Shown: positions 10,331 through 47,918 of the stretch, piece after piece
How the letters are laid out: every line of letters begins with the position of its first letter
How positions within the stretch are numbered: position 1 is the first letter of the stretch
Assembly (NCBI RefSeq): GCF_012676905.1
Contig: NZ_CP051428.1
Span: 3,186,001 to 3,250,000, forward strand
Source of the DNA: Paenibacillus albicereus
GTDB lineage: Bacteria; Bacillota; Bacilli; Paenibacillales; Paenibacillaceae
Direction: 5' to 3'
DNA length: 64,000 nt
Notes under the pieces: model-generated
Seen by the model: the letters and a program-made list of their open reading frames with translations, nothing else
What the model was told of the DNA's origin: nothing
Databases searched by the model: none
Program-made: the position numbers and the translations under genes

Positions 10331-11545
10331 CTAGCCTCCCTGCTTGCGATATTCCTGCGGATTCACCCCGTATACTTTGCGGAACAGCCGCGCGAAGTAG
10401 GAGAAATTGCCGTAGCCGAGCCCCGCGGCGATCTCGCTGACGCTCTCGTCCGTGCCGAGTAGGCGGGAGGCGGCGGCATTCATCTTCTCCTGCAGGATGT
10501 AATCGGTCAGCACTTTGCCCGTCTCCTTGCGGAACAGCCGCGACAGATAGGCCGGGTTGAGGTGAACCTGCTCGGCCAGCTCCTCGCGCGACAGCTCGCG
10601 GTCGAGATGCTCGGCGATGTAGGACTGGACCTGGCGCAGCATCGGACTTCTCGCCCGCCGCGCCTGCTCCAGCACGCCGCGGCATTCGTCGCGCAGCTCC
10701 GCGACCGGGACGGAGCCGCCGATGCGGACGGACATCCGGCAGTAGAAATAATCCCGGCACGTCCGGCGGTAGCGGTCGCACAGCCGCATCAGCTCCTCCT
10801 CGGGGAGCCCGCCCTTTCCTTCGAACAGCAGGACCCAGCCGTTGCCTCGGCCGTCCTCGGCGACCGCGCCGGGCTGCGCCGCGAGCAGCAGCTCCTCGGC
10901 CGCCTTGCGCAGGGCGAACTCCATCACCTGCTCGTCGCGCTCGCTGAACGGCTTTTCCCACTGGTCCACAGCGATGAGGAGCGGGCGCACCCGGCTCAGC
11001 TCCAGCGGATCGGCGTCGGCGGCGCCGGCGGCCAGCTCCAGCCAGCGCCCGTCCGCCTTGGCGCGGCCGGCGAGCAGATCGTTCCAGCGGCGCTCGGCGA
11101 CGAGCGGCTTCTGCATCCGCCACTGCTCCGCCATCTGCTGCTGGCGTTCCGACTCCTCGCCGCCTCGCCGCCGCTCGCCGATGCGCCGCCCGAGGCCGCG
11201 CAGCACCTCCTCCAGCTCGGCGTAGATGACCGGCTTCAGGATGTAGTCGCTGCTGCCGAGCTGCAGCGCCTTTTGCGCGAAGCGGAATTCGGAGTGGCAG
11301 GTGAGGAACACCGTCTCGAGGCGCAGTCCTTCCGCGCGCGTCCATTCGACCAGCTCGAGACCCGTCTGCTCGGGCATCTCGATGTCGCAGATGAGGATGT
11401 CCACGTCCCGTTCGAGCAGCAGCCGGCGCGCCTCTTCCGCGCCGTAAGCCTCGTACACCTCCGAGATGCCGGCCTCCGCCCAGTTCACGCCCGCCCGAAG
11501 GCCTTTGACGGCATAGATTTCATCGTCCACGATCAGCGCGTTCAT
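10331..11545 (-). CDS. YesN-type response regulator (receiver + AraC HTH)
   Basis: 404-residue two-domain regulator. The N-terminal receiver has the phospho-acceptor Asp in ICDIEMPEQTG and the switch lysine in DYILKPV. A middle region of about 130 residues is unassigned. The C-terminal AraC-type DNA-binding domain has two HTH motifs (SREELAEQVHLNPAYLSRLF and VSEIAAGLGYGNFSYFARLF). It starts in an ATGA overlap with the histidine kinase stop and is the last gene of a three-gene operon. It is the best candidate to bind the shared operator-like sequence found upstream of this operon, of both GH87 genes and of the maltose-type ABC operon. That link is inference. Confidence 0.93.
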   Translation of the reverse strand: MNALIVDDEIYAVKGLRAGVNWAEAGISEVYEAYGAEEARRLLLERDVDILICDIEMPEQTGLELVEWTRAEGLRLETVFLTCHSEFRFAQKALQLGSSDYILKPVIYAELEEVLRGLGRRIGERRRGGEESERQQQMAEQWRMQKPLVAERRWNDLLAGRAKADGRWLELAAGAADADPLELSRVRPLLIAVDQWEKPFSERDEQVMEFALRKAAEELLLAAQPGAVAEDGRGNGWVLLFEGKGGLPEEELMRLCDRYRRTCRDYFYCRMSVRIGGSVPVAELRDECRGVLEQARRARSPMLRQVQSYIAEHLDRELSREELAEQVHLNPAYLSRLFRKETGKVLTDYILQEKMNAAASRLLGTDESVSEIAAGLGYGNFSYFARLFRKVYGVNPQEYRKQGG

Positions 11546-13395
11546 GCCATCCGCTCCTTTCCTGCCGCCGGAGCTTCGGGCTCCGGGGACCGAGGCAGCT
11601 CCAGCGCCGCCCTCAGTCCGCCGTCCTCCCCGTTCTCCAGCTCGATCCGCACCGGCGCGCCGTAATACAGGCGGCAGCGCCGGACGACGTTCCACAAGCC
11701 GACGTGGCGCTCGCCCGGCTCGGCCGCGTGAATCCGCTCCAGCAGCGGTCCGAGCGCATCCTCTGCGATGCCCTTGCCGTTGTCCTTGACCTCGATGCGG
11801 ACCGCCGCTCCGCCGGACGCCGTCCTTGATTGTGCCGCGTCGACCCGCCGGACCGTCACGTCGATGCGGAACGGACCGCCTCCGCTGGATTTGAAGCCGT
11901 GCACCATCGCGTTCTCGACGAGCGGCTGCACCGACAGGGGCGGCAGCTGGAACGCCTCCAGACCAGGCTCGACCTCGAAGCCGAATTCCAGCGACTGCGG
12001 AAAGCGGTGCTTCTGGATCGTCAGGTAGTCGCGGATATGCTCCAGCTCGTCGCGCACCGCCACCGACGCCGCGCCGGTATTGATCGTGAAGCGGAAATAC
12101 CGCACCAGATGCAGCGCGATGCTTTGGATGATGTCGTAGCTGCGGATTTGCGCGAGCTGATAGACGATGTTGAGCGAGTTCATGAAGAAATGAGGCTGGA
12201 TCTGCGCCTGAAGATGCTTGAGCTCGGCTTTTTGCGTGCGGATCTTCTCCTCGTAGATGTCGATTTTCAGATGCTGGATCTGCGCCGCCATGCCGTTGAA
12301 CGTCTCGTTGATCGTATCGAACTCCGGAAGCCGGCTGTCCGGCAGCCTCGCGCTCAGATCGCCGGCGCGGATCTTGCGCATGCCGCGGATGAGCCGGTAC
12401 ATCGGCATGACGACGGCCCGCTGGAGGACGTACAGGTACACGCCGAGCAGCACCGCCGCCAGCACCGGAACCGCATAGGTCAGGTAGCGGAAATACGGCA
12501 GTCCCTCCAGCAGCGACTTCTCGGGCATGAGCAGCAGCAGCCGCATGTCCGCCATGCGCGAATCCTTGGCGACAAGCAGATGGGGCTGCGGCACGTCCGC
12601 GATCGCGTAGCCGTCCAGCGCCTCGGCCAGCGCTCCCGGCGTGCCCGCGTCGAGGCCGCGCCGCAGCTCGGGGGCGAGCTCGGTCAGCGGCTCGCCGGCT
12701 CCGCTTGTCAGCACGGCGAAGCCTTTGCCTCCCGTGCCGAGCTCGTGCAGCGGCGCCATCAGCCGGCCGAGATCGACCCAGGCGCCGACCGCCGAGCCGT
12801 AGCCGTTGTCGACGACGCGCAGCAGCGCATGGGAGCCGTCCAGCTCCTCCAGCGTCCAGCCCGTATAGGGCGTATCCGCTCCAGGGCCGGCGCGCAGCAC
12901 GTCCCGCAGCCGCGAGACGATGCGCTCCTTGCGCTCGAACGTGACGTTCTGCTGCTGGGCGAGGAACAGGTCCTCGTAGCGGGAGCTGTAGGCGAACAGC
13001 ACGTCGGCCGCTTCGTAGTAGTTCGTGTTCGCGCCGAGATCGGACGCCGCCTGCGTCTTGGCCCGGTAGTAGTCCCAGCCGCCCCGCTCGTTCTGCGAGA
13101 GCGTCATCAGGTCGCGGTTCTGCTCGGCCGTCTTGAACAGGTAGTTCTGGACTTCCTCCAGCACCTTGTCCATATCGCTCAGGTACATCGTCAGCAGGCT
13201 GCGGTTGGACTGGGCGACCTGGGAGCGGACGACCGACGTCGAGTACAGGTTGTTCCACAGCAGCAGCAGCACGAGCGGCGCCGTCACGCCGACGAAGCCG
13301 ATGATGAGGCGGGTCCGGAGCGTCTTGGCCTGCTTCGGGCGGGCCGAGCCGAGCCCGCTGCGGCGCAGGCGGTTGGACAGCCATGAGGCCGGCAT
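11542..13395 (-). CDS. YesM-type sensor histidine kinase
   Basis: 617-residue membrane kinase. It has a transmembrane helix at about residues 29-48, an extracellular sensor of roughly 230 residues, a second helix near 290-310 and a HAMP region (PMYRLIRGMRKIRAGDLSARL). The His_kinase domain has phospho-acceptor His in LQAQIQPHFFMNSLN, the N-box QPLVENAMVHGF and a G-box DNGKGI. The ATG at 13395 overlaps the preceding gene's stop by one base (TGATG), and the stop overlaps the response regulator start by four. The three genes are therefore tightly coupled. The extracellular domain may receive its signal from the membrane-tethered binding protein encoded just upstream. Confidence 0.92.
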   Translation of the reverse strand: MPASWLSNRLRRSGLGSARPKQAKTLRTRLIIGFVGVTAPLVLLLLWNNLYSTSVVRSQVAQSNRSLLTMYLSDMDKVLEEVQNYLFKTAEQNRDLMTLSQNERGGWDYYRAKTQAASDLGANTNYYEAADVLFAYSSRYEDLFLAQQQNVTFERKERIVSRLRDVLRAGPGADTPYTGWTLEELDGSHALLRVVDNGYGSAVGAWVDLGRLMAPLHELGTGGKGFAVLTSGAGEPLTELAPELRRGLDAGTPGALAEALDGYAIADVPQPHLLVAKDSRMADMRLLLLMPEKSLLEGLPYFRYLTYAVPVLAAVLLGVYLYVLQRAVVMPMYRLIRGMRKIRAGDLSARLPDSRLPEFDTINETFNGMAAQIQHLKIDIYEEKIRTQKAELKHLQAQIQPHFFMNSLNIVYQLAQIRSYDIIQSIALHLVRYFRFTINTGAASVAVRDELEHIRDYLTIQKHRFPQSLEFGFEVEPGLEAFQLPPLSVQPLVENAMVHGFKSSGGGPFRIDVTVRRVDAAQSRTASGGAAVRIEVKDNGKGIAEDALGPLLERIHAAEPGERHVGLWNVVRRCRLYYGAPVRIELENGEDGGLRAALELPRSPEPEAPAAGKERMA

Positions 13396-14978
13396 CAGGA
13401 CTCCCCCTCTCCCGCAGAAGCTCCGCCCGCGGCGAGCCAGGCGTCGAGCTGCCGCTGCTTCTCCGCGATGACCTTGTCCGCGCCGGCGGCCTTCAGCCGC
13501 TCCAGATACATTGGTATGACGGCGTCCGGATCGAGCTCGCCGGTGATGAGCGCGGGCGAGAATTCCTCGTCGACGCGGCTGCAGGCGGCGATCTCGTTGC
13601 TGACCGGCGCCGGGTCGAACACGAAGCCGAGCGCCTTGGACGGCTCCGCCTGCTCGTTGAAGCGGCGGTAGTTGTCCCATTGCTGCGGATCCTCGTTGTC
13701 CCACAAGTAGGAATTGAGCTGGTTGCCGAACATCCAGGGCAGGTTGAAATTGTAGCGGACCGAACGCGCGTCCACTCCCGGCGGATAGGCGATGCGCCCG
13801 TCCGGCCGCACGACGTAATGCTTGCCCTCGATGCCCCAGTCCAGCAGATTGAGCAGATCGCGGTCCGTATAAAGGAGCTCCAGCAGCCGCATCGCCTTCT
13901 CCGGGTGACGGGACGTTCGCGGGATGGCGAACATCGCGCTCGTCACGTCCGCCGTCGTCGTATACGGCTTGGTCAGCTCGACGGCGACCATCGGCATGCC
14001 AGTGTTGCGCGACGCCTGGATCTCGAAGCCCGGCTTCATCGACTCCGCGAAGGCGAAGGCGGCTCCGGCCTTCACCGCCTCGTACTCGCTGTCGCGGGAG
14101 GTGACCGCGTCGGCGTTCAGGTAGCCCTTGAGCTTCCACTCCTGCATGAGCCGCGCGTAGTCCCGATAGGTCTCCGTCGCGGCAAGGTTCACCACCCGCA
14201 GGCTGCCGCCCGCGCGCTCGAGCACGCCAGGGCCGTCGCCGAGCATGTCGAACAGGCCGTATTGGAGCAGGAACGTCAGCGGACTGCGGTCGGCGCGGAC
14301 CTGCAGCGGCGTCAGAGCCGGCTCCCCCCGCTTGATCGTCTCCAGGACCGGCCCGAGATCGGCGAGCGTGCGGACAGTGTCCAGGCGGATGCCGTATTTC
14401 TCCACGAGGTCGGCGCGCAGGACGATGCCCTTGCTCGCGGCGAACTCCTTGTTCGTCGGGATGCCGTACAGCTTGCCGCCGATGCGGCTCGCGCGCAGGA
14501 TCTCCGGATCGAGCACGCGGCTGATGCCCGCGCCCGCGCGCTGCAGCAGCTCGTCGAGCGGCAGGAAGCGGCCGCGCGACACCTCGTCGCCGAAGCGCAT
14601 CCAGCCGGCGGTGAACATGAGGTCCACCTGGCTGCCTGAGGCGTAGACGAGTCCCGTCCGGTCCCACCAGCTGCTCATGTCGACCGGCTTGATCTCGACG
14701 GATGCGTCCAGCTTGCCGAGCAGGTAGCGGTTCATCTCCGCCTGCACGAGCGGCAGGTCCGGCGGCGTGACGCTCGCCGGGAACATGAGCACGAGGCGGT
14801 CGGCCGCCCGGACGGCCGGAACGGCGGCGCCGGACGGCTCTTCGTCCCGGGAGCGCCCGGCGCTCCCGGCCAGCCACGCCGCCAGGGCGGCGAGCAGCAG
14901 CGCCAGCGCGCCGGCGGCAGCCAGCAGGCGAAGGCGGCGGGCGCGCTGCGCGCTCCGTTCGAGGTTGATGTCGGTCAT
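13395..14978 (-). CDS. Membrane-anchored solute-binding-like protein (CUT1/DUF3502-like)
   Basis: 527-residue protein with the fold signature of an extracellular sugar-binding protein (ADRLVLMFPA..., YGIPTNKEFA, HPEKAMRLLELLYTDRD, DWGIEGKHYV). Its C-terminal region resembles DUF3502-type LplA proteins. Unlike the other two binding proteins in this window it has no lipobox cysteine. It has an uncleaved-looking N-terminal hydrophobic helix (about residues 17-40) that would hold it in the membrane. No permease genes accompany it; it is fused in operon with a histidine kinase and response regulator. It is therefore more likely a sensory co-component than a transporter subunit. The ATG at 14978 follows AAAGGGGATT. 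Confidence 0.82.
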   Translation of the reverse strand: MTDINLERSAQRARRLRLLAAAGALALLLAALAAWLAGSAGRSRDEEPSGAAVPAVRAADRLVLMFPASVTPPDLPLVQAEMNRYLLGKLDASVEIKPVDMSSWWDRTGLVYASGSQVDLMFTAGWMRFGDEVSRGRFLPLDELLQRAGAGISRVLDPEILRASRIGGKLYGIPTNKEFAASKGIVLRADLVEKYGIRLDTVRTLADLGPVLETIKRGEPALTPLQVRADRSPLTFLLQYGLFDMLGDGPGVLERAGGSLRVVNLAATETYRDYARLMQEWKLKGYLNADAVTSRDSEYEAVKAGAAFAFAESMKPGFEIQASRNTGMPMVAVELTKPYTTTADVTSAMFAIPRTSRHPEKAMRLLELLYTDRDLLNLLDWGIEGKHYVVRPDGRIAYPPGVDARSVRYNFNLPWMFGNQLNSYLWDNEDPQQWDNYRRFNEQAEPSKALGFVFDPAPVSNEIAACSRVDEEFSPALITGELDPDAVIPMYLERLKAAGADKVIAEKQRQLDAWLAAGGASAGEGES

Positions 14979-15024: not shown

Positions 15025-15101
15025 CGGAAGCGATTTCAATTATACGCCGAACCGGGCCGCGCCACTACCTCGAATCGGACCTCGAATGCCACGATTGTGA
15101 C
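15025..15101 (-). promoter_or_regulatory. Promoter, cre-like site and shared operator of the SBP-HK-RR operon
   Basis: On the minus strand the -10 box is TATAAT (15039-15044). The operator-like block occupies 15061-15101 (plus strand GCCACTACC at 15061, CACGATTGTGAC at 15090-15101). Its promoter-proximal edge is 16 bp from the -10 box. Directly downstream of the -10 lies TGAAATCGCTTCCG (15025-15038), 13 of 14 matches to the CcpA cre pattern. The same layout recurs at 36.3, 43.7 and 51.7 kb. Confidence 0.6.
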
Positions 15102-15103
15102 CT

Positions 15104-15298
15104 CGGAGCAAGTCCGGCAGACGGCGGCCCGGCGAAGGGCCCTTGGGAGCTGCGGAGCAAGTCCGGCAGATGGCGGCCCGGCGAAGCACGTATGGGAGCT
15201 GCGGCGCAAGTCCAGCAGATGGCGGCCCGGCGAGCGCGCTTGGGAGCTGCGGAGCAAGTCCGACAGATGGCGGCCCGGCGAAGCGCGCTTGGGAGCTG
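15104..15298. repeat. Tandem array, four units of 48-49 bp
   Basis: Four consecutive copies begin at 15104, 15153, 15202 and 15250, and a fifth start at 15299 runs into the AraC gene end. Each contains GCAAGTCCGGCAGATGGCGG followed by CCCGGCGAAG and TGGGAGCTG, with scattered substitutions. It lies between the AraC gene end and the operator of the SBP operon. Reading frames run through it, but none has a start site or family match. The unit contains AAGCGCGCTT, a small palindrome. The function is unknown. Confidence 0.85.
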
Positions 15299-15306
15299 CG
15301 GCGCCG

Positions 15307-16143
15307 TCAGCCGCGGAACAGCTTGCGGTACTCGGTCGGCGTCATGCCTTCATGCTCCTGGAACCGCTTGTTGAAATAGCTCGCGCTCGGATACCCCGCC
15401 TCCTCCGCGATCTCGCCGATGTTGGCCTCGCGACGCTCCAGCAGCCACTGCTTGGCCCGCTGCAGGCGGGCCCGCGTGACGAACCCGCTCGGCGTCATGT
15501 CCAGCGCACCCTTGAACAGCCGGCAGAAATAATGGGGGCTGACGCCGGCCCGCTCCGCCCATTCCTGCAGAACAAACGGCTTGGCCGCCTCCTCTTCGAG
15601 CAGGGGCAGCAGGGAAAGGATGCGCTCCTCCGCCGGGCTGGCGGAAGGGGAGCCAAGCGGGACCGCCTGCTGCACGAATTCGGCCAGCACGCCGTAGGCG
15701 AGCGTCGACAGCAGCGCGGGCCTCGTCATGCTGCTCGTCTCCGCTTCCTCGAGCAGCGCTTGGTGCGCCTCGATCCAGGCGAGCGGCTGGCGCAGCTTCC
15801 AAAGCAGGTTCTGATGAAACCCCCGCTCGATCATGTAGTCCCGCAGCCGCCCTCCGTAGAAGTGGATCCAGCGCACCTCCCACGGATCGTCCTTGCTGCT
15901 GCCGTATTGCTGGGCCGAATGCGGAAAATACAGCACCGCCTGCCCTTGCGTCAGCTCCTGCAGGCCCGCCTCCGTCCGTACGTACCCTTTGCCGGAGACG
16001 ACAAAGTGGATGTTGAAATTGTTGAGCGCCCCGCTCTCGCGCACCACCTCATGCTCCGGGTAGTCGCGGTAGGCGCCGACCGATTCCGGCAGGATGAAAT
16101 AAGGCTGCTCCGGGAGCGTGAGCAGATGCGCTTGTCGCTGCAT
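15307..16143 (-). CDS. AraC-family transcriptional regulator
   Basis: 278-residue regulator with an N-terminal AraC-type cupin sensor (NNFNIHFVVSGKGYVRTEAG, a carbohydrate-binding fold) and a C-terminal double HTH (FVLQEWAERAGVSPHYFCRL; IGEIAEEAGYPSASYFNKRF). The final EGMTPTEYRKLF is the family signature. The ATG at 16143 follows GGAGG by seven bases. It is divergent from a Gfo/Idh oxidoreductase and aldo/keto reductase. This suggests it controls that pair, probably in response to a sugar or polyol. A 9-bp direct repeat lies in the shared intergenic region. Confidence 0.92.
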   Translation of the reverse strand: MQRQAHLLTLPEQPYFILPESVGAYRDYPEHEVVRESGALNNFNIHFVVSGKGYVRTEAGLQELTQGQAVLYFPHSAQQYGSSKDDPWEVRWIHFYGGRLRDYMIERGFHQNLLWKLRQPLAWIEAHQALLEEAETSSMTRPALLSTLAYGVLAEFVQQAVPLGSPSASPAEERILSLLPLLEEEAAKPFVLQEWAERAGVSPHYFCRLFKGALDMTPSGFVTRARLQRAKQWLLERREANIGEIAEEAGYPSASYFNKRFQEHEGMTPTEYRKLFRG

Positions 16144-30274: not shown

Positions 30275-31456
30275 TCATCTCATTCCTTTGCGGAAGCGGG
30301 TCCGGTACTGCTGCGGACTGACGCCTTTGATCTTTTTGAAGATGCGACCGAAATAATTGATGTTCTCGTAGCCGACCTGCTCCGAGATCAGGTAGCTCGG
30401 CTGATCCGTCGCCCGCAGCAGCTCGGCGGCCTTGTCGATGCGCAGCCGGTTCACCCAGTCGGTGAACGTGGAGCCCGTCTCGCGCTTGAACAGCGTGCTC
30501 AGGTACGCCTCCGTCATGCGCAGCCGCCGCGCCGCTTCCTTGAGCGAGATCGGCTCGCGGTAGTGCTCGCCCATATGCTCCAGCAGGCTGCGGATGTCCT
30601 CGCGCGTCGATAGCGCCTGCCTTCCTCCGCCTGCTCTGGCCTCCTGCTCCGCGAACGTCCGGACGGCCTCCCACGACGACAGCGGCGGCGACAGGCGCGG
30701 CGTAAGCGGGATGCCGAGCCAGCGCCCGGCCGCATGGCCGATCGGGGCGATCAGCGCCCGCAGCTCGTCGTCGCCGAGGCCGTCCGCGCGCAGCAGCGCC
30801 CCGGCCGCGCCGTCCGGAGCGGCGGCGACGGCGGCCGCGCGGCTCTGCAGCTCCGCTTGCACGAGATGCGCCAGCCGGGTGCTGCGGGCGCCGTCCTCCG
30901 CCGCCTCGCCCGGCGCGCCGCGCAGCAGCAGCAGCCGGTGCGCGCCCGGCGGGAACGCCGCACTCGGCACGGCGGCAGCGGCTGCCCCGGCCAGCGCCGC
31001 TTCCAGCAGCGCCGCGAGGCCGGGCTCCGCCGCCGGCGCTTCCAGCGGACTCGGAGCGGTTCCGCGGCCGCGCTCCAGCTTGCCCGCCGTTTCCTTCAGC
31101 AGCTCCAGCAGCACGGCCGGCTTGATCGACGTCTTGAGCACGTAGTCCTCGATGCCGAGCTTCATCGCCCGCCGCACGTAGTCGAACTCGCCGTAGCTGC
31201 TGAGCACGAGGATGAGCACATGCGGGTACAGCGCCTTGACCCGCTCGATCAGCTCCAGCCCGTCCATCCGCGGCATGACGATGTCGGTGAGCAGGATGTC
31301 GGGCGGCTGCCGCTCCATGAGCTCGAGCGCCTTCTCTCCGTCCGCCGCTTCGCCGATGAAGTCGAACGAATGGCGCTCCCAGTCGACGAGCGACCGGATG
31401 CCGAGCCGCACGAGCAGCTCGTCCTCGACCAGCATCACCTTAACCTTCTCCCCCAT
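30275..31456 (-). CDS. YesN-type response regulator (receiver + AraC HTH)
   Basis: 393-residue regulator. The receiver has Asp in LLTDIVMPRMDGLELI and Lys in DYVLKTS. A middle stretch of alanine-rich, poorly conserved sequence follows. The C-terminal AraC domain (ISLKEAARRLRMTEAYLSTL; LISEQVGYENINYFGRIF; GVSPQQYRTRF) is intact. The ATG at 31456 follows AAGGGGGAG and lies inside the kinase end (17-base overlap). It is encoded immediately upstream of the nan-type operon on the same strand, so it very likely activates it. Confidence 0.93.
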   Translation of the reverse strand: MGEKVKVMLVEDELLVRLGIRSLVDWERHSFDFIGEAADGEKALELMERQPPDILLTDIVMPRMDGLELIERVKALYPHVLILVLSSYGEFDYVRRAMKLGIEDYVLKTSIKPAVLLELLKETAGKLERGRGTAPSPLEAPAAEPGLAALLEAALAGAAAAAVPSAAFPPGAHRLLLLRGAPGEAAEDGARSTRLAHLVQAELQSRAAAVAAAPDGAAGALLRADGLGDDELRALIAPIGHAAGRWLGIPLTPRLSPPLSSWEAVRTFAEQEARAGGGRQALSTREDIRSLLEHMGEHYREPISLKEAARRLRMTEAYLSTLFKRETGSTFTDWVNRLRIDKAAELLRATDQPSYLISEQVGYENINYFGRIFKKIKGVSPQQYRTRFRKGMR

Positions 31457-33239
31457 CGGGACTCCCCCTTCGTCTCTCGGGCAGCAGGCAGGACACGGCC
31501 GTGCCTGCCCCTTCCCGGCTCTCCACCTCAAGTCCGTACGGCTCCCCGTACTGCAGCCGCAGCCGGTCATGCACGTTCTTCACGCCGATGCGCCCGGACG
31601 GCTCGCCCGCCGCCTCGCCGGACAGGCTGCGCCGCAGCGCCTCCAGCCGCTCCGGTCCGATGCCGGAGCCGTCGTCCCGCACCGTCACGGCGACCGCGCC
31701 GTCCCTCGCCCTCGCCTCGATGCGGACGCTTCCGGCTCCCGGCCGGTCGGCGAGGCCGTGCAGCAGCGCGTTCTCGACGATCGGCTGCAGCATCATCTGC
31801 AGCGCCTCCTGCTCCAGCAGCGCCTCGGGAACGTCGATGTCGAGCCGGACGTCGCCTGCGCTCATCCGCATGAGGCTCACGTAGCTGCGGATGTACTCCA
31901 GCTCCTGGCCGAGCGTCGAGAGGCGGCCGTCGCGGCCGATGCTGCCCTCGAGGATGCCCCCGAGGCTCGACAGCATGTCGCCGACCTCGTTGTCCTGCCG
32001 CAGGTACGCCATCCATTTGATGTTGTTGACCGTATTCAGCAGAAAATGCGGATTGATCTGCGCCTGCAGCGCGCGGAAGCGCATCTCCTCCTTCTGCCGG
32101 TACTCCTGCTTCACCCGCTGCAGCAGCTCGCGAATTTCCCGCACCATCTCATTGTAGGTGCCGATCAGGGAGGCGATCTCCTCCGGTCCCGCCACCTGCA
32201 GGGTGGAGTGGAACTGCTTGCGCTCGAGATCGGCCATCTTGCGGCGCAGCAGCCGCAGCGGACGCGACATGCCGCTCGCGATCGTCAGCGAGACGAGCAC
32301 GAACACGAGGACGATCGCCACCAGGGCGATGACGTTCGTCCGCCGGATGGCGGATATCTCCTCGAACACCTTGTCGTACGGCACGATCTGGACCGTCTTC
32401 CAGCCGTTCGTGCCGACCGTGTCATGGCTGACGATCCACTTGGCGCCGTCCTTTTCGATGATGCGCTGCCCTTGTCCGGTCTGGTGGATGCGGGCGAGCG
32501 CGATCTCCTCCGGCGCCGCCTCGCCGAGGCGCGCGCCGCTCGAGCTGGACACGACCTGCCCGTCCCGGTCGACGAGGTAGACCGTGCCGTCGAGGCCGCG
32601 CAGCATCTTGCGCACGTCCGTCTCCGGCACGCTGAACGTGACGGTCCCGAGATTGTCCCCCGCCGGAAAGTCGTTGATCGTCTTGACGAGCGTCACGAGG
32701 CGGCGCGGCTCCAAGTAGAGCATCCGCGAGTCGGCGGCCATCCATTGCTGCTGATAGGGCCGGCTCATGAGCTCGACGTACCAGTCCGAGCCGATGTAGG
32801 CGCGGATGGCGGGCTCGCTGACGTAGCTCGTGCTCAGCCAGCCTCCCGCCCGGTCGACGAGCGTCACCTCGGTGTTGCTGAAGTAGGAGCTGAACACGCG
32901 GTTGAACGCGGCGTCGCTGAGCCGCAGCCGCTCGAAGCGGGAGTAGCGCCCGGGCTCCTTGAGCATCGCCCGGATGTCGGCATGGAGCGTCATCTCCACC
33001 GACGCCTGCACCATGTCGTCGAGCAGCAGCCGCACGTTGAACGTGACGAGCGACAGCGCGTCCTCGTTGGACTCGCCGATCTTCTGCTCGATGACGCGCT
33101 CGAGCGGCTTGTCCAGCAGGTACATCGTGGCGACGACCGGACCGATGAGGAACACGAGGATGGAGAGAAAGATGCGGTTGCGGATCGAATTCCAGCGGAA
33201 CGCCCGGCGTCGGGCAAAGAAGGATCGCAGGGGCGTCAA
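31440..33239 (-). CDS. YesM-type sensor histidine kinase
   Basis: 599-residue kinase with transmembrane helices near residues 24-44 and 300-320. They flank an extracellular dCache-like sensor of about 250 residues. A HAMP region (SRPLRLLRRKMADLERKQF), phospho-acceptor His in LQAQINPHFLLNTVN, N-box QPIVENALLHGL and DDGSGIGPERL follow. The start codon is a TTG at 33239; no ATG fits the frame near the ribosome binding sequence AAAGGA. It is the first gene of the kinase/regulator pair that precedes the nan-type operon, so its ligand may be an extracellular amino sugar. Confidence 0.9.
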   Translation of the reverse strand: MTPLRSFFARRRAFRWNSIRNRIFLSILVFLIGPVVATMYLLDKPLERVIEQKIGESNEDALSLVTFNVRLLLDDMVQASVEMTLHADIRAMLKEPGRYSRFERLRLSDAAFNRVFSSYFSNTEVTLVDRAGGWLSTSYVSEPAIRAYIGSDWYVELMSRPYQQQWMAADSRMLYLEPRRLVTLVKTINDFPAGDNLGTVTFSVPETDVRKMLRGLDGTVYLVDRDGQVVSSSSGARLGEAAPEEIALARIHQTGQGQRIIEKDGAKWIVSHDTVGTNGWKTVQIVPYDKVFEEISAIRRTNVIALVAIVLVFVLVSLTIASGMSRPLRLLRRKMADLERKQFHSTLQVAGPEEIASLIGTYNEMVREIRELLQRVKQEYRQKEEMRFRALQAQINPHFLLNTVNNIKWMAYLRQDNEVGDMLSSLGGILEGSIGRDGRLSTLGQELEYIRSYVSLMRMSAGDVRLDIDVPEALLEQEALQMMLQPIVENALLHGLADRPGAGSVRIEARARDGAVAVTVRDDGSGIGPERLEALRRSLSGEAAGEPSGRIGVKNVHDRLRLQYGEPYGLEVESREGAGTAVSCLLPERRRGSPDGGEG

Positions 33240-33480: not shown

Positions 33481-36171
33481 CTACCAGTTGTTGCCGGAGC
33501 CGCTCGCCGTGAAGCTCGGCGAGTCGTTCACGAACTTGCCGGACGGGGCGCCGTTTACGGTATTGTTCGTAAAGGTCGAGCTGCCCGTCGCGGAGCCGCG
33601 CATGTAGAAGCCGTGCGTGCCGGCGTTCGTGATCGTGTTGGAGCTGTACGTCACCGCGATGCCCGGTGCCGGTTCTTCGATGAAGACGCCGGCGTACGTG
33701 CTGTCCTCGATCGTGTTGCCGGCTACGGATACGCTCAGGTTCTGCGCCTTGCCGTTGTTGTTCAGCCAGTACGCCCAGATCGCGCCGATGCCGTATCCGT
33801 AGTCCTTGTGGAGCGAGCCGGCGCGCGCGAGGCGGTTGTTCTGCACGGTCAGCGTGCCCGTCATGGACGGCGGGTTGAAGTTCGTGCCGAAGCTGATGCC
33901 GGAGCCGTTGACGACCGTGTCCTCGAGCAGGTTGTTCAGCACTTTGTTGTCCTTGCCGCCATAGATGGCGATGTTGTTGGCGAGCGTCGGAATCTGGACC
34001 GTGTTGAAGCTGAACGTATTGTTCGTGTTCAGATACGTGTCCGACCACATCGCCAGCCCGTCGTCGCCGCTCGTGCGGACCGAGTTGTTCGTGACGGTCG
34101 TGTTCGACGTGCCGTAGTGGAGGTTGACGCCGTCCGCCCAGACGTGGCGGATGCGGGAGTTCGAGAACGTCGCCCCGCTGGTCTGGTTCGTCAGCCAGAG
34201 TCCGACCTTGGCATGCGTGATCCACAAGTTCGTGATCGTAGAGTTCGTGCCGTTGCCTTCTACGGCGGTCACGCCGTTGTAGTCGTCGCGGATGCGGTCG
34301 TCCGGCGCGATCTTGAAGTCGGAGATCGTCACGTTGCCGCCGCGCAGGTACAGTCCGGCATACGCCCCGTTGATCTCGGAATGCCAGATGCCCGCGCCGC
34401 GCATGGAGACGCCGCTGTCGAGATACAGGCGGGTGCCGGTGCCGTTGTAGCCGGCGCCCTTCGTGCCGCTGCCGATCGTGAACGCGCCGGACGGAATCCA
34501 GACGCCCTTGAGCGTGCCCCCGGAGTTCTTGACCGCCTGGATCGCGCTGTTGAACGCGGCCGTATCGTCGCTTCCCCCGTTCGCCGTCGCGCCGTAGTCC
34601 GTCACGGAGGCGTAGTTCGCCGGCTTGGAAATGGCGGCAGGAACCGCCTCCGTCTCCACGAGGTCGACCGTGACGTAGGACGTCTGGGCGAAATTCAGGT
34701 TGCCGGAATCGCGCTGCAGCTTGATGACGGTGCCGGCCGGGTAGGATTGGTCGAGCTTGAAGCCGACCTCGTCGTACATATGATGCGGCGTCGTCGGCTG
34801 GGCGTTCGGATTGTTGGACCAGCGGATCTCGCCGCCCTCGGTATTGTAGGAGCCGTAGATCCAGCTGTACTTGGACGTCAGCGGCACCTGCTGCTTGAGC
34901 GTGCCGTTCACGTACAGGCTGATGCCCGCGTCGATGCCGGTGCCGGCGGCGTTGTCCGGAATCGAGTAGCGCACCGTCACGCCCTGCGCCGCCTTGGCCA
35001 GCGTCAGCTGCACGTACTGGCCCGCGCCGGTCAGCCGGACCGCCCTGCGGCCGGACGCTTCCGAGGCGGGATCGCCGAACGTGCGGGACGGACCGATGAC
35101 CGTTCCGTTGTAGGTCAGGCTTTCCGCCTGGTACGTGTCGTACGGCATCGTCGCGCCGAAGGAGCCGGACGGCGCCGGGGTCGGGGTCGGGGTGGCCGTC
35201 GGCGTCGGGGTTGGCGTGGCCGTCGGCGTCGCAGTAGGAGTCGGCGTCGGCGTTGCGCCGCCCTGTCCGTAGACCTCGAGCTCGGCGGCCTGTCCGCCCG
35301 TCGCGCCGCTGTTGGCCGTGAAGCTCAGCCGCACATAACGGGCACTGGAGGCGGAAAAGGAGATCGCCGCCTCGTTGCCCGTCGCCGGATCGAACGTGTA
35401 GCTGGCCGACGCCTTCAGCGTCGAGTAGGACGTATTGTTCGCGCTGCCGAGCACGGCCAGCGTCTGCGAGCGGCTGCCCCAGCCGGACGGCAGCTTGACC
35501 TTCACGCTGGTGATGCTCTGGGCGCTGCCCAGGTCGACGGTCAGCGTGTTCGGGTAGGTCCCGGCCGCGCCTTCATAGTAGGTGGAGACGTTGCCGTCCG
35601 TCGCTGCGGAGGCCGGGAAGCCGCCGACGCTGCTGCTCGCCGTGGCGGTTTTGCCCAGCGCCAGGTTGGCGCCGAGCGACGCTTCCAGCGCCAGATGGTC
35701 GACGTTCACGTTGCCGCTGTCCGACGCGTCGAACTTGTACTGGAGCGTGTTGGAGCCTGCATTCAGCGTCACCGTCTCGCTGGCGGCGGCCCAGCTGTCC
35801 CAGTTCGCCGTGGCGGGCAGCGACAGCTGCTTCAGCTTGGAGCCGTTGACATACAGGCTGAGCGTCTGGGACGAGCCCGTGCCGTTGGCGTACCGGAGCG
35901 CGGCGGAGTAGCTGCCGGCGGAGGCGGCGCTCACGCTGAAGGTGGTGGAGGCATTGCCTTTGTTCGCGTCCGTATAGCCGCCGACAAAGCCGGTGCCGGT
36001 GTATCCGGCATGGTCGCTGGCGACGGACGCGCCGCCGGCCCGGACGGCGGACTCCGCCTCGTAGATCGTCGGAGCGGCGGACGCTTGCGGCGCTGCCGCC
36101 ACGAGCTGCACCGCCAGGACGGCGGTGGCGAGGACAGCGGCGCATCGCCGCATCCATGGGGATCGATTCAT
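33481..36171 (-). CDS. Secreted GH87-like alpha-1,3-glucanase (mutanase/mycodextranase type)
   Basis: 896-residue secreted enzyme. It has a signal peptide (about residues 1-33, ending ASA), then a CBM35/CBM6-like module (YEAESAV ... VDHLALE, about 36-165). A discoidin/F5-8-type module (LGKTATASSSVGGFPASAAT ... AELEVYGQ, about 170-300) and a Thr/Pro linker follow. A second YQAES-type beta-sandwich precedes a right-handed beta-helix catalytic domain. Motifs of GH87 are seen: MRGAGIWHSEI, IRHVWADGVNLHYGTSNTTV, TSGDDGLAMWS (candidate catalytic DD) and TLANNIAIYGGKDNKVL. The ATG at 36171 lies seven bases after AAGGAGG. No anchor is present, so it is released. Promoter shares its operator with the SLH-anchored paralogue. 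Confidence 0.88.
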   Translation of the reverse strand: MNRSPWMRRCAAVLATAVLAVQLVAAAPQASAAPTIYEAESAVRAGGASVASDHAGYTGTGFVGGYTDANKGNASTTFSVSAASAGSYSAALRYANGTGSSQTLSLYVNGSKLKQLSLPATANWDSWAAASETVTLNAGSNTLQYKFDASDSGNVNVDHLALEASLGANLALGKTATASSSVGGFPASAATDGNVSTYYEGAAGTYPNTLTVDLGSAQSITSVKVKLPSGWGSRSQTLAVLGSANNTSYSTLKASASYTFDPATGNEAAISFSASSARYVRLSFTANSGATGGQAAELEVYGQGGATPTPTPTATPTATPTPTPTATPTPTPAPSGSFGATMPYDTYQAESLTYNGTVIGPSRTFGDPASEASGRRAVRLTGAGQYVQLTLAKAAQGVTVRYSIPDNAAGTGIDAGISLYVNGTLKQQVPLTSKYSWIYGSYNTEGGEIRWSNNPNAQPTTPHHMYDEVGFKLDQSYPAGTVIKLQRDSGNLNFAQTSYVTVDLVETEAVPAAISKPANYASVTDYGATANGGSDDTAAFNSAIQAVKNSGGTLKGVWIPSGAFTIGSGTKGAGYNGTGTRLYLDSGVSMRGAGIWHSEINGAYAGLYLRGGNVTISDFKIAPDDRIRDDYNGVTAVEGNGTNSTITNLWITHAKVGLWLTNQTSGATFSNSRIRHVWADGVNLHYGTSNTTVTNNSVRTSGDDGLAMWSDTYLNTNNTFSFNTVQIPTLANNIAIYGGKDNKVLNNLLEDTVVNGSGISFGTNFNPPSMTGTLTVQNNRLARAGSLHKDYGYGIGAIWAYWLNNNGKAQNLSVSVAGNTIEDSTYAGVFIEEPAPGIAVTYSSNTITNAGTHGFYMRGSATGSSTFTNNTVNGAPSGKFVNDSPSFTASGSGNNW

Positions 36172-36314
36172 TGTTGTTCCTCCTTGAGTAGGTTGATTGA
36201 AGTTCATTCGCGGACCGTTTCGGGCGGTCCGGATGACGGTATTCGGATGGCGCTCCTCCCTCCCTTCATGAAGCCGAGCCGGGATGCCGGTTCGGAAAGC
36301 CGCGCCCCCTTCTC

Positions 36315-36398
36315 AGAAAGCGCTTTCCACGATCTCATTATCTCGACAACGCGATGCGGATACTACCATTCTGGTGACCTGTACGGACATTTTGAGCA
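36315..36398 (-). promoter_or_regulatory. Promoter, cre-like site and shared operator of the secreted GH87 gene
   Basis: On the minus strand GATAAT (36337-36342) is a -10. The operator-like CTACCATTCTGGTGACC (plus strand 36363-36379) has its promoter-proximal edge 16 bp from it. GAAAGCGCTTTC (36316-36327), a perfect palindrome matching the CcpA cre core, lies just downstream of the -10. The distal half of the operator (36389-36398) is poorly conserved. Confidence 0.55.
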
Positions 36399-36519
36399 GA
36401 TTTTCGCTGCCATTCATGCGCGATCCGATCCGCATTCACCGTCCCATCGAGCTGCAACCCGAACGAATCGGGCTGCAGCTTGCCGCGAGCGCGTCTTTCG
36501 AGCTGTAACTCGAACTGCC

Positions 36520-37393: not shown

Positions 37394-40300
37394 TTACGGC
37401 CGCAGCTGCTCCAGAAAACGGAGCAGAAGTATCGCAGCCTCGGCCCGCGTCACGTCCGCCTCCGGATGGAACTTGCCGTCCGGAGCGCCGAGCAGCAAGC
37501 CGCGCGCGGCCAGCTCGCGTACCGAGTCCGCCGCCCAAGGGCGAATCGAGGCGGCATCTGCAAACGGAGGCGCCGAGGACGATGCCGCTGCTGCAACGGA
37601 ACTTCCGGCAGTCCCTTCTGCTTGCGCGCCGCCGCCTGCCTCCAGGCCGGCGCTCGCAGCGGCCTCGGAAGCGGCGGCTCCGCTCGTTGCCGAAACGCCC
37701 GCGAACGCCAGAAGGCGCGCGGCGAGCACCGCCAGCTCCTGCCGGCTGAGCGCGTCATCCGGCCGGAAGCGTCCGTCGGCATCGCCTTGCACGATGCCGG
37801 CCGCCTGTACGGCGGCCAGCGCCGCAGCCGCGTCCGGCCGGCTGGCCGCATCGCTCCACGACGCCGGAGCCGCAGGCATCGCCTCCAGCCCGAACGCGCG
37901 GGCCAGCAGCAGTGCGATCTCCGCGCGGGTCACGCGGCGCGAAGGCTCGAACGAGCCGCCCGGCACGCCGGCGGCGACGCCTTTGGCCGACAGCGAGCGG
38001 ATCGCCTCCGCAGCCCAGTGGCCGTCCGCCACGTCGCGGAAGGCTTGCGCCGGCATCTGCGCCGCCGCGAAGCTGCCGGCGCCAAGCGCGAGCACGGTCA
38101 CGACGCTGCCGCTGCCGTCCGGCGAAGCGAAGGCCGGTGCGGAAAGCCGCTTACCGCTGCCTCCCGCCACGCCGACCGCCGCTGTCCGCGACGTCTCCAG
38201 CGGCTCCGCGACGCGGAAGCGCAGGGACACATAGCCGAGCGAGCCGGCCGGCACCGGCAGCGTCCGGCCGCCGGCGCCAAGCTCGGCGCTCCAGCAGATC
38301 GAGCCGGAGCCCGTCCGTCCGCCTCGCTCCGCAGCCGCAGCGGCCAGCTGCGCCTTCTGCGCGTCCGACGCCTCGCCGAGCTCCAGCTTCAGCGCCGCCT
38401 CGGCGCCGCCTGCCGCGATCAGCGCGGCCAGCCGGGCCGCCTGCGGCGCCGCGAGCTCCAGCGAGCGCCCGTCGCCTTCCAGGCGCAGCGCCGCGCGCGG
38501 CTCGCCGGCGAGCGCCTGCAGCGCCGCGAGCGGCACGAGAGCGGCCAAGCCGCCGTCCGCCGCGCGGTAAGCCTGCAACCGCACAGAGAGCTGTCCCGTG
38601 CGGACGGCTTCCTTCAGCAGCAAGCCGTTGGCGGCGAGCGAAGCGTCCGCATCCAGCATTGGCGTCGGCGTCGGGCTGGCTGTCGGAGCAGGCGACCCGC
38701 CGCTTCCTCCGGAAGGAGCCGGGGTCGGATCCGGCGTCGCCGTCGGACCGGATGTCGGCGTCGGCGCCGGGGTCGGCGACGATCCGCCCGGCTCCTCCGG
38801 CTGTCCGGGCTCGGACGGCTCGGCCAGTCCTTCGCCCGTCGCCGCGCCGTCGACCGGCAGCGGCCCGGACGGCACGCCTGCCGCCTCCTGCAGCTCGACC
38901 GTCGCGCCGCCGGCCCGGAAGCGGCTGCCGAGCTTCGCTCCGCGCTGCTCCAGCCCTTCCAGACGCAGCAGTCCGGCCGCTCCCGGTCCGGCATGGATGC
39001 CCCACGTGCCGGAGCCGTCCAGCACGAGGTCGCGGATCGTGATCTTGCCTCCGGCCGCGCCCAGCGGCTGATTGCCGCTGACGTACAGCCCGGAGTACGT
39101 GCTGTCCAGCACGTTGTTGTCGAGGATGTCGATGTCGGCCTCGATCGGCAGGCTGTCCGTGAACAGCCAGATGCCGCCGAAGTCCTGCTTCCAGTTGGCC
39201 TCGCGCCCGCCGGTGCGGATCAGCGTGTTGCGCTCGACGACGGTGCGGCCGCCGAACGGAACCGGATTGAAGCGGGTCGACACGGCGATGCCCGCGCCGA
39301 AGCCGACCGTATCGCTCAGCACGTTGTCCTGCACCTTGTTGTCCGAGCCGCCGAACACCGCGATGTTGTCGGCGAGCCAAGGCAGCTGCACCGTGTTGTA
39401 GCGGACCGTGTTGCCGGACACGCGGGCATCGTCCGCGCTGACGCCTTCCGGCCGGGCCGACCAGAGCGCGATCGAGTCGTCGCCGCTGTTGCGGACGTGG
39501 ATCTGCTCGGCCATCGAGTTGCGCGTTCCGGTCGAGAAATTGATGCCGTCGGCATATGTGTCGCGGATGCGCAAGCCCGCCGCGTAGAGCCCGTCGGTGA
39601 CGATGCCGCCGTCCTCGTCGTCGCTGCGCACCGACCAGATGCCCGCCTTGGCATGCTCGACCCAGACATGCTGGATCGTCGAGCCGGCGCCGAACGTGCC
39701 GTCGAAGGCGGCTTCGCGCCGCTCGTCATGGCGGGCCGTCACGCCGACGTCGATCATCAGGTCCTGGACGGCAATGCCGCCGCCGACGCCCATGAAGCCC
39801 GCGCCCTGCAGCTTCGCCTGCCACATGCCCGCTCCGCGGATCGCGATGTCCTTCAGCTCGATCGGCCCTTGAGCAAGGTCGAACGTGCCGGCCGGGATCC
39901 AGACGCCTTCGCCGGCCTTGCGGGCGTCCTCGATGGCGGCGCGAAGCGCGTCGGAATCGTCCTGCCCGTCATCCGGCGCCGCGCCGTAGTCGACGATGGA
40001 CCGATAGCCGTCCGGCCGGGCATAGGCCGCCGGGGCCAGCTCCAGATCCGCGCTGTCGAGCACGACGTACTCGGCTCCGTCGTCGGCGCCGAGCTGCAGG
40101 CGCAGCAGCGAGCCCGCCGGAAGCGTCCTTCCGAACCGCAGCTGCGACTCGTCGTAGAACCGGTGCGGGTCGCCGTCCTCCGGCTCATTGGACCAAGGGT
40201 ACTTGCCGTACACCCAGCTGTGCTTGCTGGACAAAGGAATCTTGCCCGCATCCTTGCCGTCCACCGTCACGCTGAGCGTCGCGTCCAGCCCTTGACCGTC

Positions 40301-43300
40301 CGCGCTGTCCGGGAGGATGTAGCGCAGCGCCATCGCGCTCGCGGGCTTGTCGAGCCGGAACTCCACATGCCGCCCCGGCTCGTCCAGCAGCACCGCGCGG
40401 CGCCCTGAAGCCTCCGACGCGAACGTCATGAACGTCCGGTCCGGCCCGAGAATGGTGCCGTCCGTCGACGCATGCTCCGCCTCGTACGTGACGAAGGGCA
40501 GCGTCGCCCCGCGATAGGCGCGGCTGACCGCCCGCTTCACCGTCAAGCGGTCGACGAGCAGGCCGCCCTTCGCCCCCTCCGCGCCCTCCGCGAAGCTCAG
40601 CTCCACCGAGTTGTACCCTTCGCGCAGCGACAGCGCAAGGGATGCGTCCGTCCAGCCTGCAGGCCCGTCCACGACCAGCTCGCCCTGAGGCAATCCGTTC
40701 ACGGATACGGCCGCGACCCCGGCGCCGCCCTCGGCGGCGATCCGGAACGACGCCTCGTAGTCGCCGGCCGCCCCGGCGGCCACCGCGAGGATGAGGCGGT
40801 TGCCGGGACGGCCGAGTCCGGCCGCATAGCCCTTGCCGCTATGCCCTTCCCGCTGCGACGCGGCTGCCGCGCCGCCGCTCATGAAGCCGTTCTCGGCTTC
40901 ATAGCGGATGTCGCCCGGCTGTTCCTCCAGCGTCCACCGGATGCTCTCCGGCGCCGGACCTGTCTCGGCGGCAGCCTCCAGCCTCAGCTGTCCGCCGCTC
41001 AGCGCCAGCGCCCGGCCGGGCCACGCGGCGCTCTCCAGCACGAACCGGCCGCCGCGCGCCGCGAGCGTCCACTGCGCCTCGGCCGATGCGGCGTCTGCGG
41101 CGCTTGCGGAGCGGATCGAGCCGTCCGCTCCGGCCGCCAGATAACGCTCTCCCGCCGCGCTGCTCAGCCGCTGCCGTCCATTGAAGTCCTCCAGCCGCCA
41201 CAGCGCGTCCGCTCCGGCCGCATCGCCTGTCAGGGCCGTCACCGCTCCGTTCCGGTCCCAGCCGACATAACGGCCGGCCACGGCGTTCGCCAGCCGGTAC
41301 AAGCCACCATGCGGCGCGGCCGGCGTCGAGCCGTCGCCGGCCGCATCGGCTTCCTCCGGCACGAAGCTCTCTTCCGGCGCGGCTTCCAGCCGCCACTGCA
41401 CCCCGGCCTTGTCCACCGAGCGCAGGCCGAGCTGCGCATAGCCCTGGCCGTCCTCGATGTGCACATATTCGTCGGAGCGGCCGTCGGACAGGCTTCTCAC
41501 CAGCACGACGCCGGAAGCCGCGCCGCGCTCCAGCGCCCACTCCGCGCCATGGAGCGCGGCGTCAGGCTCAGCAGCCGAGGCCGTCAAGTACGGCTTGCCC
41601 TCGTTCCAGCGCAGCCAGCCGCCTGTCGCGCGGTTCTGCAGCCGCCAGCCGCCTTCGTCCGCTGACGGCAGCCAGTGGGAGCGCGCGTCGCCCGGCTCCG
41701 GCGAGCCGTACAGCACCGCGCCGCGCCCGTTCGCCAGCAGCGCCGCACCGCCGCTGCCGACCAGCCGCACATAGCCGTCCGGCAGCTCGACCGGCTGCTC
41801 CGGCTGCGGCTCGCCGCCTTCCGCGAACGTCTCGAAGCGCCATTTCGGACTGCCCCAGCTCGGATCGATCGGGTTGTACTCCGCCGTCTTGAGCTGATGC
41901 TCGACGTTCAGGTAGCCCGACGCGGACTCCGGCCGGACGTCCGCCGCGCTGCGGATGAGCCGCAGCCCCTTCGTCTCCTTGACGATCCATTCATCGAGCG
42001 CGGAGCCCTCGGTGCGCTCCGCGACCCGCACCGGCTCGCGCGAATCCGGCTTGACGCCTTCCAGCGTCATGTAGTGCCCGGTCGCCCGGTTGCGGATCGT
42101 CTGCACGCCTTCCTTGCCGGCCGCCCCCTCGACGAGCCACATCGCGGCTTCATCCGCCGCCGCGGCATTGCCGTAGGCGAGCTTGCCGTCCTTCTCGAAC
42201 AGATACAGCTCCAGGTAATCGTTCTTGATGCGCACATAGGGCGAAAGCTCCGCATCCGGAGCCGGATCCTTGACCGCCCACGCGGCAAACGCCACCTCGC
42301 CGGACGCGACCGCTCCCGCGCGGACCGTGCCGTCGCCTGCCGCCGCATGAAGCCTCATCGCCGGGTCGTCCCAAGCGGCGAACGCCGCCTTGATGCCAGC
42401 GCCGAGCTCGTCCCTAGCCGGCGCCATGCTCCATCGCGCGGACGCTCCAGCATCCGCCGCTGCCGCCAGCATGAGCGGGCCGCCGTCCGCCGGACGGCTC
42501 ATGTAGCGGCCGTCGGCGACGCTCCGCAGCCGCACGGCCATGCCGTCATCCTCGATCGCCCAATACGACGACGGGTCCTGGTAATCGGCCGCGAGCGAGG
42601 CGACCGCTCCGCCGCGCGCGGCCACATACAGCCCCGCGCCGCCGTCCTGCAGCCGCTTGGCCGGCGCGTCCGTCGCCGCCTCCAGCCGCCAGCTCGAGCT
42701 GCCCCAGCCGGGCTGCGCCCAGTCGCTGATCTGCAGCCAGCCCGTCTGCTGCTGCACATGCAGGATATACGACGGATGCTCCGCGCTGCGGAGCGTCAGC
42801 TTGCCGCCGGCCTGGACCTCGACGAGCAGGTCGCCCGCCGAGCTGCCTTCCGGCAGCTCGGACGCTTTCGCCGGCGCGTTCAGCGCGTCGCCGTCGTTGC
42901 CGAGCCGGTTCAGCACATGGCCGGTCGCCCGGTTGACGAGCCGCTCGCTGCCCGCCGCCGCTCCCGGCATGCGGATCCAGTGCGAGGCCGGGTCGTTCGC
43001 CGCCGGCGTGCCGTACTCGACTTTGCCGTCCTTTTCGAACAGGGCCATGCCCTTCCAGTCGTCTACGAGCCGCACCGGCTCGGCGTCCAGAGCCGGCTCC
43101 AGATGCCAGGCCGCCGAGCCCCAGGACGGCTGCGCCCAGTCGCTCGCATTGGCGAAGCCGGTGAGCATCTGAATGTTCAGCACCTTGCCCGGCGCTCCCG
43201 GCACGGAGACGTTCACCGCATCCGCGCCGTAGCTGCCGCCGGCCGGCGCGACCGTCCAGGCGGCAGCGGCATCGTCCTCCGCTGCGGGCGATACGCCCAG

Positions 43301-43636: not shown

Positions 43637-43658
43637 CTGTCTTTCCCCCTCTTGAGAT

Positions 43659-43734
43659 AGCAACCGCTTTCAGTTTACGCAGAGGCGGACGGGCCCTCTA
43701 CCAGAAAGGGGACCTAGAAGGGTAAAATGGTGAC
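43659..43734 (-). promoter_or_regulatory. Promoter, cre-like site and shared operator of the SLH-anchored GH87 gene
   Basis: On the minus strand TAAACT (43672-43677) serves as -10. The operator-like block 43694-43734 (plus strand CTCTACCAGAAAGGGGACC, then AAAATGGTGAC) begins 16 bp away. TGAAAGCGGTTGCT (43659-43672), close to the cre consensus, follows the -10. Layout matches 15.0 and 36.3 kb. Confidence 0.55.
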
Positions 43735-44770: not shown

Positions 44771-44843
44771 CGGCCTTCCTCCACGACCTCATCCCGCTTC
44801 ATCCGCTTGCATCTTGCCCCATCAAAGGAGAATGCATTCCATC

Positions 44844-47261: not shown

Positions 47262-47284
47262 GCCAGACAGCATGCTTCCCGTTC

Positions 47285-47333
47285 AAAAAGCGTCCCGATC
47301 CGCAGCCATGCGGACGGGACGCTTCTTTTTTTT
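47285..47333 (+). terminator. Intrinsic terminator of the TetR-MMPL operon
   Basis: Stem AAGCGTCCCG plus TCCGCA paired with TGCGGA plus CGGGACGCTT, one bulged A, loop GCCA, followed by CTTTTTTTT. Confidence 0.93.
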
Positions 47334-47465
47334 GCAAAGTGGCAACCATAAGCCCGAATCCATGACAACATGAGGTTGCGGAGCCGTGCAACCCATGCGT
47401 TCTTTACATTTGAATTCGATTCGACAAACAATAGCTTATAAACGGATAGAAAGGCAGCTGCTGCT

Positions 47466-47918
47466 ATGATCTTCAGCGAGAAATTAAAAACGGAGAGAAC
47501 CAAGAAGGGCTGGTCGCAAGAAGAATTGGCCGAGAAGCTTTTTGTCAGCAGACAATCGGTTTCAAAGTGGGAGAAAGGTCAAAACTATCCCAGCATTGAA
47601 ACCTTGATTAAATTGAGCGATTTATTTCAGGTGACCCTGGACGACTTGTTAAGGAGCGACGGTGAGTTAACCAAAAAGGTGATTCGCGAAAGCAAGCAAT
47701 TGGCTTATCCGAAAGCAACGTTCGCGTTTGACCTGTTGTTCTCACTCGGACTTGTCCTGCTGGGAATCAAGCTTGCTGTTTTGCTTTTGAACCAAGCGAC
47801 GCCTCTTGACATCAAGCTGTATGGCGGATCTTTTTTATGGAATTTCGGATCTGCCCTGCTCCTGATCGGCGCCGGAATCGGGTCCCGTATCCTGAAGGGC
47901 AAATTCAAACAAGATTAA
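47466..47918 (+). CDS. XRE-type HTH regulator with two C-terminal membrane helices
   Basis: 150-residue protein. An N-terminal XRE/Cro helix-turn-helix (WSQEELAEKLFVSRQSVSKW) opens it, then a linker and two hydrophobic segments (about residues 85-105 and 118-140). Membrane-tethered XRE proteins of this kind are common in Firmicutes; their signal is unknown. The ATG at 47466 is preceded by a weak AAAGG. The gene is much richer in A/T than every neighbour, with AAA/TTA-type codons, which suggests recent acquisition. It stands alone between the MMPL operon and the maltose-type transporter. Confidence 0.85.
   Translation: MIFSEKLKTERTKKGWSQEELAEKLFVSRQSVSKWEKGQNYPSIETLIKLSDLFQVTLDDLLRSDGELTKKVIRESKQLAYPKATFAFDLLFSLGLVLLGIKLAVLLLNQATPLDIKLYGGSFLWNFGSALLLIGAGIGSRILKGKFKQD

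Follow-up and report, generated by a model that had tools for sequence, protein, structure and literature searches.

Four promoters in the 64,000-nucleotide stretch of the Paenibacillus albicereus genome analysed here (hereafter the window; NZ_CP051428.1, positions 3,186,001 to 3,250,000) share an operator. To judge from their sequences, these sites are very probably the operators of a single alpha-1,3-glucan regulon, controlled by the response regulator RR1 of an SBP-kinase-regulator system that would also activate its own operon. Alpha-1,3-glucan is a sugar polymer of fungi and dental plaque, and P. albicereus is a soil bacterium. The operator, its regulator and a short, apparently complete list of targets make up a directly testable circuit.

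Operator sequence and geometry

A sequence-only reading of the window had proposed four blocks that align without gaps, and we confirmed both their positions, on the minus strand, and the ungapped alignment (Table 1). The block is laid out as GTCAC-N15-GGTCM-N7-GGTAG, followed by 20 bp to the -10 box (21 bp at the SBP2 promoter). The operator consists of two direct half-sites, GTCACAAT and GTCAC, and its 3' end, GGTAG, lies 20-21 bp ahead of the -10 box. The half-sites, described earlier as repeating about every 21 bp, do form a repeat, with a spacing of exactly 21 bp, and the -10 boxes stand 16, 16, 16 and 17 bp past the block edges, as first stated.

Using the pattern GTCACMATNNTN9GGTCMN7GGTAG, exact matches were obtained at 15065-15101, 43698-43734 and 51735-51771. 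The notion of an operator common to all four promoters thus holds for these three in full, whereas in the GH87a site only the proximal half matches (36363-36379) and the distal half is degenerate. This degenerate half is identical in P. pasadenensis, as is a block of ~50 bases in the GH87a operator region. The GH87b operator was found in P. pasadenensis too, and that of the SBP1 promoter is also present in orthologous SBP1-HK1-RR1 operons.

Table 1. Coordinates of genes, operators and cre-like sequences in the window
Feature	Positions	Strand	-10 box	Description
RR1	10331-11545	-		Receiver + AraC-type HTH response regulator, 404 aa; probable operator reader
HK1	11542-13395	-		HAMP + His_kinase + HATPase sensor kinase with extracellular domain; H-box QPHFFMNSLN
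SBP1	13395-14978	-		SBP_bac_1 + DUF3502 solute-binding protein; N-terminal membrane anchor, no lipobox cysteine
GH87a	33481-36207	-		CBM6, F5/8 type C and alpha-1,3-glucanase catalytic domains
GH87b	37394-43663	-		Large alpha-1,3-glucanase with ricin-type lectin and SLH domains
MalG	48077-48919	-		MalG-type permease
MalF	48919-50214	-		MalF-type permease
SBP2	50322-51701	-		Transport solute-binding lipoprotein, lipobox LAAC
SBP1-HK1-RR1 operator	15065-15101	-	TATAAT, 15044-15039	GTCACAATCGTGGCATTCGAGGTCCGATTCGAGGTAG
GH87a operator	36363-36399	-	GATAAT, 36342-36337	Intact proximal half GGTCACCAGAATGGTAG
GH87b operator	43698-43734	-	TAAACT, 43677-43672	GTCACCATTTTACCCTTCTAGGTCCCCTTTCTGGTAG
SBP2-MalF-MalG operator	51735-51771	-	TACAAT, 51713-51708	GTCACAATCGTGCTCAACGCGGTCACCAGGTTGGTAG
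cre-like, right after SBP1 -10	15025-15039	-		TTGAAATCGCTTCCG; 1 mismatch; kept in G070 (P. pasadenensis) and G060
cre-like, after GH87a -10	36315-36329	-		TGGAAAGCGCTTTCT; 1 mismatch; kept in G070
cre-like, after GH87b -10	43659-43673	-		CTGAAAGCGGTTGCT; 1 mismatch; kept in G070

Moreover, 51 further sites from other genomes could be aligned without gaps, the position of the -10 box being nearly fixed. In the sites from other genomes, half-sites of the GTCAC type occur at positions 1 and 22 (a direct repeat of ~21 bp); in nearly all sites GGTAG is separated from the -10 box by 20-21 bp, and the proximal half overlaps the -35. No conserved -35 hexamer was found in the aligned sites besides the operator's own GGTAGT. 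The AraC-type repeat spacing and the placement of the site over the -35, both proposed from the window alone, are thereby borne out. This geometry of half-sites, -35 and -10 fits tandem binding of an AraC-type activator at a class II position.

Directly upstream of the SBP1 operator, at 15104-15301, a 49-bp unit is present in about four tandem copies.

Specificity of the operator

Since the four blocks had themselves supplied the pattern, it was tested with other data. Shuffled windows gave no match to the full pattern. The 5.17-Mb genome was searched both by patterns and by a sequence model; after the three exact pattern matches, the next ones need 3 mismatches. The model is independent and sequence-only, and was made from 42 sites, aligned without gaps, of genera other than the window's own. 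Its matches 1-4 in the P. albicereus genome were the four named promoters, with 30.6, 20.3, 18.1 and 15.4 bits (51735-51771 being the genome's best match, E = 1.2e-6), while the fifth reached 12.1 bits (E = 0.77). Within the window, a weight matrix based on those 42 sites gave scores of 36.2, 28.6, 24.2 and 11.4 to the four sites and -7.5 to the next best. A genome-wide scan, the check suggested with the sequence-only reading, thus returned the four named promoters as the best four matches, and neither the pattern nor the model placed the motif at random genome positions. Given that model and matrix isolate these four promoters, they appear to be the whole regulon in this genome. A second GH87 locus of P. 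albicereus, outside the window (L200; G000:C1:1751069-1752604), is without such an operator.

Distribution of the operator and of RR1

Among 247 Paenibacillaceae genomes, 24 were matched by the pattern at no more than 1 mismatch, compared with one match for a reversed-pattern control, and most of the matches in these 24 genomes stand ahead of the genes that follow the operator in the window. The matches in G111, G117 and G161 were attributed to chance, as they have neither a following -10 box nor related genes. RR1 orthologs were distinguished by score in a search of the same 247 genomes. Operator and RR1 ortholog coincide in 21 of 21 genomes (Fisher p ~1.5e-29, with one orphan site elsewhere, in G034); because these genomes are related, they do not amount to 21 independent events. 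Within three genera, the presence of RR1 and operator is patchy. Two apparent exceptions were discarded: G207, with an operator and no strong RR1 match, does possess RR1, its matches being split over two frames, and G080, with an RR1-like protein and no operator, falls outside the RR1 clade and its SBP is only 38% identical.

Whether the operator goes with the regulator or with the enzyme was examined on a list of GH87a orthologs. The GH87a promoter carries the operator in 17/17 genomes with RR1 versus 0/8 genomes lacking it. Among the GH87a sites, those of P. albicereus itself and of P. pasadenensis are half-degenerate; those of G060, G134 and G236 are weaker and were found by the matrix. The operator thus goes with the regulator and not with the enzyme, a result that, together with the co-occurrence in 21 of 21 genomes, supports the earlier proposal that the response regulator at 10331-11545 is the one in control.

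Counting against RR1 as the reader, the GH87a site has lost its distal half, and G034 has a strong site without an RR1 or GH87 gene nearby. At this place (G034:C14; L130 9966-10031), a strong operator and a -10 box are followed within ~100 bases by a hairpin and a T-rich run; the site may belong to a short RNA gene or else be a relic.

Alternative explanations

Other regulators might read the operator. The response regulator at 30275-31438 also combines a receiver with an AraC-type HTH and adjoins GH87a, its kinase gene coming immediately after that enzyme gene. However, only 3 of the 21 genomes with the operator contain an ortholog (18 do not), P. pasadenensis has none although all four operators are retained there, and nine genomes have an ortholog without the operator. 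On this distribution it was rejected, and we hold such a role to be extremely improbable. The one-component AraC regulator next door to the SBP1 promoter (15307-16143) has an AraC-type HTH and the right location; its involvement is nevertheless highly unlikely, as operator-bearing loci beyond P. pasadenensis contain no close copy, only matches of 24-27% typical of any AraC protein, and it is disfavoured by this gene neighbourhood. It is likewise very doubtful that one or more different YesN-type paralogs are responsible. A sister clade of SBP-linked regulators does use the same half-sites at 22 bp; however, those regulators are served by separate sites at the operons that encode them, and in the P. 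albicereus genome there is no 22-bp site and no other regulator of comparable closeness to RR1 (one match at E<=1e-40).

Alternatively, RR1 could bind the operator and repress the promoters until a ligand is present. We leave this a small chance, given that the operator overlaps the -35, where repressors can act too; against it, the only conserved -35 hexamer is the operator's own GGTAGT, and where AraC-type two-component regulators have tandem-repeat sites upstream of the promoter, they are interpreted as activators (PMC8579813). As to whether the similarity is due to chance or to a common core-promoter feature, the -10 boxes and their spacing are indeed ordinary, but nothing was recovered from the shuffles, the reversed control matched once in 247 genomes, and the independent other-genera model, picking only the four promoters, refutes this explanation, whose probability we take to be practically nil. 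The preferred reading remains that of RR1 as an activator acting through the operator.

Target genes and their arrangement

The sequence-only reading had linked the four units as one alpha-glucan regulon, and this link is supported, as in other genera the operator stands before transcription units of the same three kinds, namely SBP2-MalFG(-GH87), GH87a and SBP1-HK1-RR1. It stands ahead of SBP2 in all 21 operator-bearing genomes. In other genera, SBP2, MalF, MalG and GH87b form a single cluster behind a single operator, and SBP1-HK1-RR1, with an operator of its own, is often found downstream of this importer-GH87 cluster; the latter arrangement points to autoregulation of the SBP1-HK1-RR1 operon. 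In P. pasadenensis, GH87b has its own operator, as in the window, and the same MMPL/HTH_3 region is present. No separate site ahead of GH87b was found in the other loci, so that the GH87b operator probably arose after the split. The true start of GH87b is probably an internal ATG. The calibrated operator model predicts which GH87 genes are co-regulated.

Several neighbouring genes should be mentioned. Between MalG and GH87b, the opposite (plus) strand carries an MMPL transporter gene and an HTH_3 regulator gene (44814-47918). GH87a is followed immediately, on the same strand, by the genes of the second kinase and AraC-type response regulator (30275-33239, minus strand), and read-through from the GH87a promoter could extend into them. 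In Cohnella endophytica (G043) and in G241, an operator was seen ahead of a methyl-accepting chemotaxis-like gene just behind RR1 (L113 8261, L111 3868).

RR1, HK1 and SBP1

The SBP1, HK1 and RR1 genes are adjacent, in the same order as in orthologous loci, and display the features of a three-component system: adjacent genes for SBP, kinase and regulator, a regulator with receiver and AraC-type HTH, and an SBP held outside at the membrane. HK1 is a LytS/YesM-type kinase. A membrane helix without a lipobox cysteine was found in 11 of the 12 SBP1 sequences read (the window and 10/11 orthologs), the G212 ortholog having a cysteine within its anchor helix. SBP2, unlike SBP1, has a lipobox. By analogy, this fits a role of SBP1 in sensing and of SBP2 in transport, and SBP1 is probably the sensor.

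RR1 comprises 404 aa here compared with 530-568 aa in its orthologs, owing to a clean in-frame loss of ~125 linker residues, a segment kept in 19/19 orthologs compared. The receiver and the HTH are intact despite this loss. Given the shortened linker, which likewise weighs against the RR1 reading, the activity of RR1 may differ in P. albicereus.

Proposed mechanism

In the circuit that we propose, the GH87 enzymes would release alpha-1,3-gluco-oligosaccharides, which the membrane-anchored SBP1 would bind outside the cell; alpha-1,3-glucan is put forward as the signal because two of the targets are GH87. SBP1 would then signal via HK1, and HK1 would phosphorylate RR1. Two RR1 monomers are predicted to bind the half-sites in tandem, 21 bp or two helical turns apart, and to recruit RNA polymerase to the -10 box placed 20-21 bp on. 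Since the proximal half ends at GGTAGT, where a -35 would be, RR1 may substitute for the missing -35. In this scheme, RR1 would switch on both secreted GH87 alpha-1,3-glucanases, the SBP2-MalF-MalG importer and, as positive feedback, SBP1-HK1-RR1. In the presence of better sugars, three of the four promoters might be damped by CcpA.

cre-like sequences

Three cre-like sites had been reported after the -10 boxes. They are indeed present, each one mismatch from the consensus and within ~30 bp downstream of the -10 box at 3/4 promoters; the pattern itself occurs in the window at chance frequency, the consensus tested (WTGNAANCGNWNNCW) giving 12 matches versus 11.7 expected. No cre-like sequences were seen at the corresponding place in the promoters of other genera. 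CcpA control via these sequences is plausible within the genus only.

Relation to known systems

In Ruminiclostridium cellulolyticum, CuaDSR is a three-component system with separate SBPs for sensing and transport (PMC10384115). It resembles the present system in its adjacent SBP, kinase and YesN/AraC-type regulator, in a second SBP that belongs to an importer, and in its regulator of 538 aa, which has a long linker like the RR1 orthologs (PMC10384115). In contrast, CuaD is a lipoprotein that binds cellobiose (PMC10384115), whereas SBP1 is anchored by a membrane helix and the targets here are alpha-1,3-glucanases. According to the same source, XylFII-LytS-YesN of Clostridium beijerinckii and the three-component sugar system of Geobacillus stearothermophilus also have an SBP-assisted kinase and separate SBPs for sensing and transport (PMC10384115); they concern other sugars, and the likeness lies in the components. 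Similarly, the predicted AraC-type activators of Caldicellulosiruptor bescii have tandem-repeat operators upstream of promoters of carbohydrate transporters and enzymes; the genes and substrates differ, and the likeness is one of operator layout (PMC8579813). A described regulator for GH87 genes or for bacterial alpha-1,3-glucan use was not found in the open-access literature searched. We regard the present circuit as a new and well-supported case within a known class of sugar-sensing systems, backed by comparative evidence that is unusually clean.

Sister operators at 22-bp spacing

The other-genera model also detected weaker sites, which fit it only with one additional base inserted between the half-sites. 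These 22-bp sites precede permease-SBP-HK-RR operons of Paenibacillaceae (L131, L133-L136, L139 and L145) and lie, among others, at L131 9995, L133 5309, L134 4881, L135 9863 and L136 4297. The corresponding pattern matched 18 sites in 16 genomes, with no match for the reversed control and none in the P. albicereus genome. The sister regulators form a clade (B22) with a support of 100/100, separate from the RR1 clade (94/100). The two systems are alike in their related SBP, kinase and regulator (~33-50% identity), GTCACAAT half-sites, GTAG end and -10 position; the sister systems differ in the 22 bp between their half-sites, and in an SBP that is a lipoprotein (two read) and shares an operon with permeases of its own.

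The first recognition helix, NPAYLSRLF(R/K)KE, is nearly identical in the RR1 and sister clades. It is possible, although we think it rather unlikely, that the spacing of 21 versus 22 bp insulates paralogous YesN-type regulators, once the SBP of one clade had given up transport to become a dedicated, helix-anchored sensor of alpha-1,3-gluco-oligosaccharides. Spacing by itself cannot make up the entire code, since in a third group (G058 and relatives) related half-sites also stand 21 bp apart. Sister operators at 21 and 22 bp provide a natural test of the means by which bacteria keep their many paralogous YesN-type regulators apart, and both kinds of operator coexist in some genomes.
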